Positions 6 through 39,866 of a stretch of 41,849 nucleotides of DNA are shown here, piece after piece. This DNA is from an uncultured Lachnospiraceae bacterium (GTDB lineage: Bacteria > Bacillota > Clostridia > Lachnospirales > Lachnospiraceae). The stretch covers positions 1-41,849 of the forward strand of contig CALWLN010000197.1 in assembly GCA_944381535.1 (NCBI GenBank), in the 5' to 3' direction. The position numbers were made by a program, and so were the translations under genes. The notes beneath the pieces are model-generated. The model saw nothing but the letters and a program-made list of their open reading frames with translations. It was not told where the DNA came from and did not search any database. Every line of letters begins with the position of its first letter. The stretch's first letter is position 1.

Positions 6-80
6 AAATCAAGACGCAACGGTACTAGGCTCGCCGCCCGTAAACGGTCGGTTCGCCAAGTGCCGGCGTCTTTCCATGGT
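6..80 (-). ncRNA. Candidate structured leader RNA, copy A
   Basis: On the minus strand this stretch folds into a long stem. The outer arms are GACGC (70 to 66) and GCGTC (17 to 13), reinforced by CGG/CCG. The inner arms are ACTTGGC (61 to 55) and GCCTAGT (30 to 24), and a short GC-rich hairpin sits in the apical part. CTTGATTT follows at 13 to 6. The same core and tail recur on the plus strand at 39097-39142, which is the main reason to call it an element. It begins just after a candidate extended -10 promoter, so it would form the 5' end of a transcript running left out of the window. I do not recognise the family, and a riboswitch or protein-binding leader is only inference. Confidence 0.45.
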
Positions 81-36755: not shown

Positions 36756-37817
36756 TTAATCTTTCTGAAAAATACTCCCGGAAAACTTCCCGGCCAGGCG
36801 CCGGCGTTCGTCATCGGTTGCAGCGTAGTGCTGGCGGGTGGTTTCCACGCTTTTATGGCCCAGAGCGTCAGCCACCAGGTAGATATCGCCGGTTTCCTTG
36901 TATAAATTGGTGCCATAGGTGCTCCGAAGCTTATGGGGTGTGATTTTCTTATTGATACTGGCTGCGTTGCTGTATTTTTTTACCAGCTTCTCCACGGCCC
37001 GGGTGGTGAGCCGGGTATATTTCAAGGAGAGAAACAAGGCGTCAGCGTGTTCGGGGGCCGCCTTTTCGGCGAGAGAGGGCCGCTCCAGTTCCAGATATTC
37101 CATCAAAGCCGCCGAAACCTCGTCACCGAAGTACACCGTAGACTCATTCCCGCCTTTTCGAACCACACGAACACAATTGTACTTGAAATTCACATCCTTG
37201 ACATCCATTCCCACCAATTCCGAAACACGAACACCTGTTCCGAGTAGAAGAGTGAGAATAGCAGTATCACGGTACTTTGTCTTTTCATGGAGGGCAAGCT
37301 GCCGGTCGGTGAGGGAATTGCCTTGTTCCGCAGCGGTAAGCAGATCAGATACCTCGTCCTTGTCCAGATGAATGATGTTGTCCTTATGTTTCTTGGGCGT
37401 CTCGATCATGGATGGCGCGTTTGTGGTGATAAATTCTTTTTTGAAAAAATAATTATACATGGTCCGGAGGGACGATAATTTTCGTGATTTTCCTTTTTCG
37501 CCGTTGGTTTTTTCCGTTCCTTCAGCGTTTTCATAGAAGGAAAGGTAAGCTAAGTATTCCTCAATGTCCGTGGGCGTCATTTGGTCCAAAACGGTGATGG
37601 GAATATCATGCATGGATTGTTTGGCGTACACGGGATTATTTTGCTGTATAAACTGAAAAAACAGACGCAGATCGTATGCGTAAGCCAGACGGGTCCTGGA
37701 GGACGTATTCCTGGTATCAAGATACCGGAAGTAGTCGCCGCAGAACTTGGGAAGTTCCTTTAAAAGCGCGTTCAGTTTGCGTTTGTTCTCTAAATTGATT
37801 TTGTCCGTATATTCCAT
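36756..37817 (-). CDS. Tyrosine recombinase, XerS-like
   Basis: The 353-residue protein has an N-terminal SAM-like core-binding domain (about 20-135) and a catalytic domain with the full set Arg197 (GTGVRVSEL), Lys221 (VVRKGG), His295 and Arg298 (PHKLRST), His321 (LGHKSV) and Tyr331 (RQHYA). It should therefore be active. Length and domain style recall the single-recombinase XerS type, and no phage or transposon genes surround it, so a chromosome-dimer resolution role is more likely than a phage integrase. That is inference. I set the start at 37817 after AATAGGTG. An 8-bp inverted repeat lies just upstream (37831-37862). Confidence 0.85.
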   Translation of the reverse strand: MEYTDKINLENKRKLNALLKELPKFCGDYFRYLDTRNTSSRTRLAYAYDLRLFFQFIQQNNPVYAKQSMHDIPITVLDQMTPTDIEEYLAYLSFYENAEGTEKTNGEKGKSRKLSSLRTMYNYFFKKEFITTNAPSMIETPKKHKDNIIHLDKDEVSDLLTAAEQGNSLTDRQLALHEKTKYRDTAILTLLLGTGVRVSELVGMDVKDVNFKYNCVRVVRKGGNESTVYFGDEVSAALMEYLELERPSLAEKAAPEHADALFLSLKYTRLTTRAVEKLVKKYSNAASINKKITPHKLRSTYGTNLYKETGDIYLVADALGHKSVETTRQHYAATDDERRRLAGKFSGSIFQKD

Positions 37818-37830
37818 GATTTCACCTATT

Positions 37831-37862
37831 TCAGTTCGCAAAATCAACATTTCACGAACTGA
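37831..37862 (-). promoter_or_regulatory. Inverted repeat in the recombinase leader
   Basis: TCAGTTCG (37831-37838) and CGAACTGA (37855-37862) are perfect 8-bp arms separated by 16 bp, immediately upstream of the recombinase ATG and overlapping its ribosome-site region. It could be an operator or a leader hairpin that masks translation. It does not fit a Gram-positive LexA box. Confidence 0.4.
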
Positions 37863-38947: not shown

Positions 38948-39039
38948 GACAATTCTCCTTTTTTGTTACTGGTCACGAAGTAAAAACGGAATATTACATT
39001 CGCAGAGTAAAAAAACAGTAACCCCTTTTCACTATTCTT

Positions 39040-39068
39040 AGTTTAGCACACTATTCTATATGTGGCAA
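39040..39068 (-). promoter_or_regulatory. Promoter for the isochorismatase-dtd operon
   Basis: On the minus strand TTGCCA (39068 to 39063), a 17-bp spacer and TAAACT (39045 to 39040), preceded by TGC, make an extended -10 promoter. The start is near 39033, about 85 nt before the ATG. Its -35 overlaps the -35 region of the divergent promoter. Confidence 0.45.
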
Positions 39069-39080
39069 TGCGAAAAAATG

Positions 39081-39089
39081 TGGTATAAT
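39081..39089 (+). promoter_or_regulatory. Extended -10 promoter for the TtcA-like gene
   Basis: TGGTATAAT (39081-39089) is a TGn-extended consensus -10, with no good -35 at 17 bp (TGTGGC at 39061). The predicted start at 39096-39097 coincides with the first base of leader element B. Confidence 0.55.
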
Positions 39090-39096
39090 AGTTTCT

Positions 39097-39142
39097 ACTT
39101 GGCGAAGTATTGCCGAGCCTAGTTTATACTTGATTTACAGCG
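39097..39142 (+). ncRNA. Candidate structured leader RNA, copy B
   Basis: ACTTGGC (39097-39103) and GCCTAGT (39117-39123) pair with one U/U mismatch around a 13-nt loop that begins GA and ends CGA. CTTGATTT (39129-39136) and AGCG (39139-39142) follow. Copy A on the minus strand near 6-70 shares both arms, the GA and CGA loop edges, CTTGATTT and the AGCG. The element would be the 5' end of the TtcA-like mRNA, 20 nt before its ATG. Unlike copy A it has no outer stem. I do not recognise the RNA class. Confidence 0.5.
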
Positions 39143-39161
39143 AAAGAAAGGATTTCCAGAC

Positions 39162-39866
39162 ATGAAACTACAACAGCTTTTAAGTCAGCTGCGGCAGGCT
39201 ATAGATGATTTTGATATGATCGCAGACAATGATACCGTTGCTGTGGGCCTTTCCGGTGGAAAGGACTCTATGACGCTGCTTTACGGGTTAAAACAATTAC
39301 AGCGCTTTTATCCCAAAACATTTCGGCTTACCGCCATCACGGTGGATCTTGGCTTTGAGACGTATGATTTAAAGGCTATGCAACAATTCTGCAGCCAGCT
39401 GCAGGTTCCTTACCGTGTCGTAACCACGCAGATTGCGGATATTGTCTTTCAGGCCCGAAAAGAATCCAATCCCTGCGCGCTCTGTGCAAAAATGCGAAAA
39501 GGCGCGCTGAATCAGGCTCTCTTGGAGGAGGGAATCCACACAGTTGCCTACGCCCACCACCGGGATGATTTTATCGAAACCATGCTTCTGTCACTGCTGT
39601 TTGAGGGAAGCTTCCACTCCTTCGCACCGAAAACCAAACTGGAGCAGACGGGTATCACGGTTATCCGTCCCATGCTGTACGTGCGGGAGGCGGATGTGAA
39701 AGGCTTCTGCAATAAATACCAAATTGCCGTCACCAAAAGTCCCTGTCCTATGGACGGGCACACCAGACGGGCCTATGTAAAACAGCTGATAAAACAGTTA
39801 AATACGGAGAACCCCGGTGTTAAGGACCGCCTGTATGCGGCAGCTTTCAAGCTTTACCGCTCCTAA
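39162..39866 (+). CDS. TtcA-like tRNA-thiolation-type ATPase
   Basis: The 234-residue protein belongs to the PP-loop ATPases of the TtcA/TilS group. It has SGGKDS at residues 31-36, a CxxC pair Cys105 and Cys108 (NPCALCAKMRKGAL), and a third Cys195 (KSPCPMDGHTRR). These match the three cysteines that hold the Fe-S cluster of TtcA, which makes 2-thiocytidine in tRNA. The protein is shorter than E. coli TtcA, so the exact target is uncertain. AAAGGA precedes the ATG, and its leader carries element B. The 3' end overlaps the convergent plsC by 4 bp. Confidence 0.88.
   Translation: MKLQQLLSQLRQAIDDFDMIADNDTVAVGLSGGKDSMTLLYGLKQLQRFYPKTFRLTAITVDLGFETYDLKAMQQFCSQLQVPYRVVTTQIADIVFQARKESNPCALCAKMRKGALNQALLEEGIHTVAYAHHRDDFIETMLLSLLFEGSFHSFAPKTKLEQTGITVIRPMLYVREADVKGFCNKYQIAVTKSPCPMDGHTRRAYVKQLIKQLNTENPGVKDRLYAAAFKLYRS

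Follow-up and report, generated by a model that had tools for sequence, protein, structure and literature searches.

The 41,849-nucleotide window analysed here is one complete contig, out of 241, of the genome of an uncultured Lachnospiraceae bacterium and contains two copies of a short hairpin, one in the leader of a TtcA-like gene and one on the opposite strand at the contig end (Table 1). The locus raises the question of whether the shared hairpin is a genuine RNA family and what it may do at the 5′ end of an mRNA. A first-pass annotation had described a two-copy motif of ACTTGGC-GA and CGA-GCCTAGT arms, and both copies are present as described; the inner stem pattern did not occur in 100 dinucleotide shuffles of the window. 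The count of two does not hold, as the same genome contains 27 exact copies of a tight pattern and 42 of a looser one, and one of the window copies is part of a transposon-like repeat. The hairpin at 39097–39123 (H1) represents a real, structured, Lachnospiraceae-wide family, with many more copies and covarying arms, as the annotation had supposed.

Table 1 Features of the window associated with the two hairpin copies
Feature	Position	Strand	Basis
−35-like hexamer GTGGCA	39062..39067	+	Consensus scan: spacer 16, 10/12 matches
TGn-extended −10 box TATAAT	39084..39089	+	Sequence and scan; spacing to hairpin same as in other leader-class copies
Leader hairpin H1	39097..39123	+	Sequence, covariance-model match, placement; family covariation
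Remaining leader ACTTGATT	39124..39146	+	By eye; probably the gene's own flank, outside the motif
Shine-Dalgarno-like AAAGGA	39147..39152	+	By eye
PP-loop ATPase gene, TtcA-like	39162..39866	+	PF01171, E 4.6e-23
MITE-like repeat, cut by contig end	1..187	−	Outer inverted repeat ending at 187, by eye
Hairpin core within the MITE-like repeat	24..61	−	Pattern, covariance-model match

The annotation had been unable to match the motif to a known class, and Rfam 15 agrees: at the gathering cut-off no family was found in the whole window or in 20 loci, and there was no match at up to E 10 for positions 38990–39170. Of 61 relatives searched, 15 have a loose pattern of the hairpin, all of them among the 37 of the same family and none among the 24 of other families, and a reversed control pattern was not found in the same 61 genomes. 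A covariance model (R1) was built on 37 sequences selected by the loose pattern, which include the plus-strand copy of the window, the repeat being represented by other loci (L001 among them). The two window copies match R1 at E 9e-10 and 9e-7; H1 is a weak member of the family, with 34.8 bits and its outer pairs lost. At a threshold of E 0.01, and with the best 20 candidates per genome scored, R1 matches 119 of 299 genomes of the family. In a class-wide sample it matches 6 of 196 genomes, five of which are family members; the sixth match is marginal (E 0.007), close to chance expectation. The family is apparently undescribed: no published description of the motif was found in the literature within reach, which did not extend to most subscription papers or to the supplements of a large-scale prediction of candidate RNAs from the human microbiome (PMC8040213). 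That study covers the same habitat and may include the motif; the palindromic examples with a stated host in its section 8 are from Bacteroidetes, unlike the hairpins described here.

The core of the hairpin is an ACUU-R-GC/GC-Y-UAGU stem, interrupted by a U-U mismatch and topped by a tandem G-A/A-G step that adjoins the stem. The apical part is replaceable and ranges from a 9-nt loop to long hairpins. In H1 the stem is ACUUGGC/GCCUAGU with the U-U mismatch, a tandem GA-GA and a 9-nt apical part. The tandem GA step corresponds to r(GGCGAGCC)2, a sheared motif known for its stability. The best 150 of 170 R1 matches in 100 loci, corresponding to 118 distinct rows, were fitted to the model for structural alignment. 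Changes on both sides were found in seven of nine stem pairs, which bears out the annotation's claim that the arms pair around a variable loop, and 89.6% of cells pair vs 77.5% in shuffles. Among 22 two-hairpin units picked by hand (18 with a promoter and four without, several leader copies being left out), 16 of 24 pairs covary vs a shuffle mean of 8.0, and none of 500 shuffles reaches 16. Paired cells and the covariation score exceed both shuffles and slid controls; the number of pair types shows no excess over shuffles (408 of 500 for the 118 rows and 82 of 500 for the two-hairpin units).

Most invariant letters of the stem are not a free result, because the model was trained on pattern-selected sequences. 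The mismatch was left free in a search of 120 genomes for ACTN...NAGT, in which T stands opposite T in 149 of the 150 places listed; 62 of the 150 belong to two genomes of one genus. The total for the reversed control was 13 matches vs 201. The U-U mismatch is present in both hairpins of all 22 two-hairpin units, and the tandem GA is near-invariant while the flanking pairs covary. A pseudoknot between loop and linker was considered, in which the H1 loop AAGTAT could pair with a downstream ATACTT, and GGTRT with ATACC in other leaders. It was dropped, as loops differ within genome G287 against a constant linker, ATATATGCC, and the ATACTT of H1 also occurs in a sister-species leader that lacks the hairpin.

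The two window copies are of different kinds: the plus-strand copy is a leader, and the minus-strand copy is part of a transposon-like repeat. Complete repeats are 310–319 bp long and have inverted ends starting with GTTACTG; the four that were delimited by script are all flanked by identical 8-bp sequences, indicative of target duplication. They have the inverted ends and target duplication of miniature inverted-repeat transposable elements (MITEs), the window's own copy being cut off. The minus-strand copy resembles bacterial MITEs in these features, and leader copies show no such ends. Of the 27 tight-pattern copies in the genome, 23 have the long apical part of the near-identical repeat, to which the minus-strand copy belongs, and four, including the plus-strand copy, have a short one. 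In two loci of the same genome (L066:1538-1581, minus strand; L067:1555-1598, plus strand) a core copy lies in frame inside a long ORF, which is not interrupted. A tyrosine recombinase gene (PF00589) is located at 36756–37850 on the minus strand of the window, with no link here to the hairpins. The annotation had placed the two copies before different genes; no gene is visible after the minus-strand copy, because the window is the whole contig and this copy reads off its end.

The leader form is defined by its position relative to a promoter. Within 22 nt upstream of 226 distinct hairpins, a −10-like hexamer (TATAAT or one of four close variants) was found for 33; the other 193 are without a −10 box at that spacing. 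All 33 belong to one spacing class, with 7 nt (24 copies) or 8 nt (nine copies) from the −10 box to the C of the stem, the distance expected for a predicted start on the first nucleotide of the stem. In the window 7 nt separate TATAAT from A39097, the predicted +1 or one nucleotide off, and the consensus scan gave two promoter-like sites vs a shuffle mean of 0.8. Both copies had been said to sit directly after a TGn-extended −10 box; this is correct for the plus-strand copy and not for the repeat copy, in which the −10-like word TGTTATAAG ends 22 nt ahead of the hairpin. The 33 leader copies come from eight genomes of seven genera, with 14 from G287 alone, which contains tandem arrays. In 24 of 25 leader copies the nearest downstream ORF, called mechanically, runs in the same direction, a count that leaves out five more copies overlapping an opposite-strand ORF. 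The genes behind the leaders encode a PP-loop ATPase, YigZ, thymidylate synthase, EF4/LepA, threonylcarbamoyl-AMP synthase, GlgA, a response regulator and others; they are unrelated and have no pathway in common. The PP-loop ATPase of the window scores 188 bits with the NCBIfam TtcA model, under its cut-off of 272, and its named best relatives include Oliverpabstia.

Leaders usually contain a second hairpin about 45 nt downstream of the first. The extended stem of the second hairpin uses the GGTAT of the next −10 box, and TATAAT or a one-mismatch form of it follows in 20 of 25 units. Tandem arrays have a period of 91 bp in G287 and G304 and of 102 bp in G026. In the last unit of two arrays (L128 and L156), the 5′ half of hairpin 1 is fused to the 3′ half of hairpin 2, which suggests that the two hairpins have recombined. 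Three loci of genome G005 (L061, L063 and L086) carry a further hairpin repeat, GGGTTCGCGAAGCGGTTCCTATAAT, adjoining −10-like words.

The presence of the leader hairpin differs between orthologous genes. R1 found no hairpin in any of the nine orthologues of the TtcA-like gene with readable leaders, namely eight named relatives (59–67% identity) and an 88%-identical copy from a sister species; one locus that starts inside the gene (L179) was left out. The sister-species leader reads TATAAT-ACTTGATCATAG (also given as TATAAT-ACTTGATC) and has no hairpin. The unit is present in one of five same-genus genomes at thyA and likewise in one of five at yigZ. In three aligned leader pairs the upstream DNA is alignable as far as the −10 box and divergent beyond it. 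An orthologue test in G287 found no genus mate and hence no empty site, and the thyA leader of the window's own genome is not a clean empty site, because another repeat sits there. A palindromic repeat, TATAGTAAACGACAAATAAATTTGCCGTTTACTATAG, and near forms of it are found in leaders and spacers of this genome, upstream of thyA (L208) and downstream of a hairpin (L005). Loss instead of gain is possible in the sister species, because a decayed remnant may remain in its leader. We infer that the hairpin cassette was gained at existing −10 boxes, with insertion as the putative route, and lost again in evolution.

The same comparison bears on two further proposals of the annotation. It had included CTTGATTT and AGCG in the motif; the sister-species leader appears by eye to carry this tail without a hairpin, and the tail is no longer counted as a third block of the motif. 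When the two leaders were aligned globally, the CTTGATTT and AGCG words did not fall together. The tail probably belongs to the flank of the gene itself, and its resemblance to the repeat seems to be fortuitous. A ligand-binding riboswitch had also been suggested, and a structured 5′ leader ahead of coding regions would suit one. It is now close to refuted, because the downstream genes are unrelated and the leader is missing from most orthologues examined; the mismatched stem, the small variable loop, the failure to see a conserved expression platform and the lack of an Rfam match likewise speak against it. Of the three functions that the annotation had put forward, a start-site element is the best fit, as the leader class stands at the predicted start site in 33 of 33 copies by its −10 spacing.

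Copies of the core also occur outside leaders. The core is found in operon spacers, which by eye include those of ribosomal protein operons, and after stop codons, and in many genomes long quasi-palindromes, with arms specific to each copy, are centred on it. These arms are about 20 to 120 nt long, mutually complementary and different from copy to copy within a genome (L056, L083, L084, L038, L105, L143 and L168); they look as if they were co-evolving or copied across. Copies inside genes, which the annotation had counted against a family along with a lack of further copies or of covariation, do exist: 16 of 132 non-leader copies and 11 of 25 repeat copies lie in mechanical ORFs, mostly on the opposite strand. 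In two genomes the motif is positioned just 5′ of 16S rRNA genes (L042 and L051 in G010; L161 and L162 in G296). It is on the antisense strand there, and a function as an rRNA leader was rejected; in a 5.4-kb stretch at one of these sites, that place is the sole match (E 0.017). The hairpin might act on RNA polymerase directly, as a signal for antitermination or pausing, in the manner of the put RNA of phage HK022. Two hairpins right at the 5′ end of a transcript and copies within operons would be in keeping with such a signal; copies after stop codons and in repeats would not, and the 25-nt core pattern has no match among viral contigs. This explanation is highly improbable. Carriage by phages was rejected on the same viral-contig result.

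Outside leaders, with the second hairpins of leaders counted here, ORFs are co-directional in 69 of 107 cases downstream and 65 of 100 upstream (p 0.004). This bias, the invariant U-U and near-invariant tandem GA among covarying pairs, and the sharing of one core by leaders, operon spacers and repeats would be explained if the hairpin were the binding site of a Lachnospiraceae RNA-binding protein or nuclease that controls the decay, processing or translation of many mRNAs. The U-U mismatch and the tandem GA step also point to a partner of the hairpin. A site of this kind is nevertheless rather unlikely: it has no candidate protein, its presence is not kept gene by gene between orthologues, and 180 of the 299 family genomes sampled are without a match among the best 20 candidates scored per genome.

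The hairpin could instead be a selfish REP- or MITE-like DNA element, recognised as DNA by a transposition or recombination enzyme, with its +1 position a mere result of insertion into melted −10 DNA or of a −10 box within the element. The transposon-like repeat with its 8-bp target duplications, the long complementary arms, the −10-like words that follow second hairpins and the presence or absence among orthologues agree with this. The ratio of G-U to A-C on the motif strand divides the copies: for the repeat in the two genomes of one genus it is 22 vs 27, without RNA-strand bias, and in the 36 arm pairs outside that repeat it is 65 vs 38 (p 0.01, relatedness uncorrected), with 18 vs 6 in the two-hairpin units (relatedness uncorrected). 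The excess of G-U may thus lean to RNA outside the repeat and not within it. Mobilisation by a Y1 (IS200/RAYT) transposase is unsupported, since its presence does not track the hairpin: Y1 genes are absent from 6 of 13 motif-bearing genomes, and none of 20 Y1 loci has a hairpin nearby. Together with the orientation of 24 of 25 leader copies into genes, these observations make a selfish element unlikely.

The reading that we favour, tentatively and at a little below an even chance, is that the leader form is a portable 5′-terminal hairpin that shields the 5′ ends of unrelated mRNAs and is gained at existing −10 boxes. The hairpin would begin with the +1 nucleotide of a promoter of the sigma-70 type and would in many cases be followed, 45 nt on, by a second hairpin with an extended stem that ends in a fresh −10 box; the transcript would carry a base-paired 5′ end. 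Such an end may hinder 5′ pyrophosphate removal and 5′–3′ decay, which would stabilise unrelated mRNAs. Purified B. subtilis RppH requires the 5′ end to be unpaired over at least two nucleotides and to have G as the second (PMC3997798). A role as a portable protector is proposed because an ACUU start inside the stem would meet neither need. The best fold of H1 is in another register and still leaves just one 5′ nucleotide free. With z −0.58, the 65-nt leader of H1 has no stability beyond that of shuffles. Three other leader stretches were folded, and the modelled structure was obtained for one (z −3.6) and not for the other two. These folds, the weak family score of H1 and the 193 hairpins without a −10 box at the leader spacing speak against a protector, as does a sequence conservation that exceeds the need of a generic 5′ stabiliser; because of this excess constancy, a protein partner and DNA-level mobility are still to be considered. 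A possible but doubtful combination of the two themes is a mobile RNA cassette that targets promoter −10 elements: it would enter at the transcription bubble, leave a −10 box on both sides, provide unrelated mRNAs with a new start and a standard structured 5′ end, and form the 91–102-bp arrays by repeated entry or unequal exchange.

Several known systems resemble parts of this picture. The stabilising stem-loops of the E. coli ompA and B. subtilis aprE leaders, to which PMC3997798 refers, likewise lie at the mRNA 5′ end or a few nucleotides from it; they are single-gene leaders, whereas the present family places one conserved motif before unrelated genes and in non-leader elements, and its stabilising effect is putative. 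REP and BIME palindromes have the same form of a short, imperfect hairpin in which a mismatch is conserved, and they too are scattered between genes; unlike them, the family is without an associated Y1/RAYT gene in the 20 loci and in 6 of the 13 genomes given above, and its leader form is fixed at the predicted +1. Correia, BOX and bcr1 elements are mobile, structured and in places promoter-bearing interspersed repeats, and in these respects are alike. The hairpin differs from them in being restricted to one bacterial family, in having a core common to several element types with different ends, and in the fixed distance of the −10 box.

If the protector reading is correct, the Lachnospiraceae, which are a major part of the gut flora, would share a movable module that gives unrelated mRNAs a standard 5′ end. 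One short sequence would then connect mobile DNA with promoter evolution and with mRNA stability, and the hairpin could be used as a small building block to adjust expression in commensals that are difficult to engineer.
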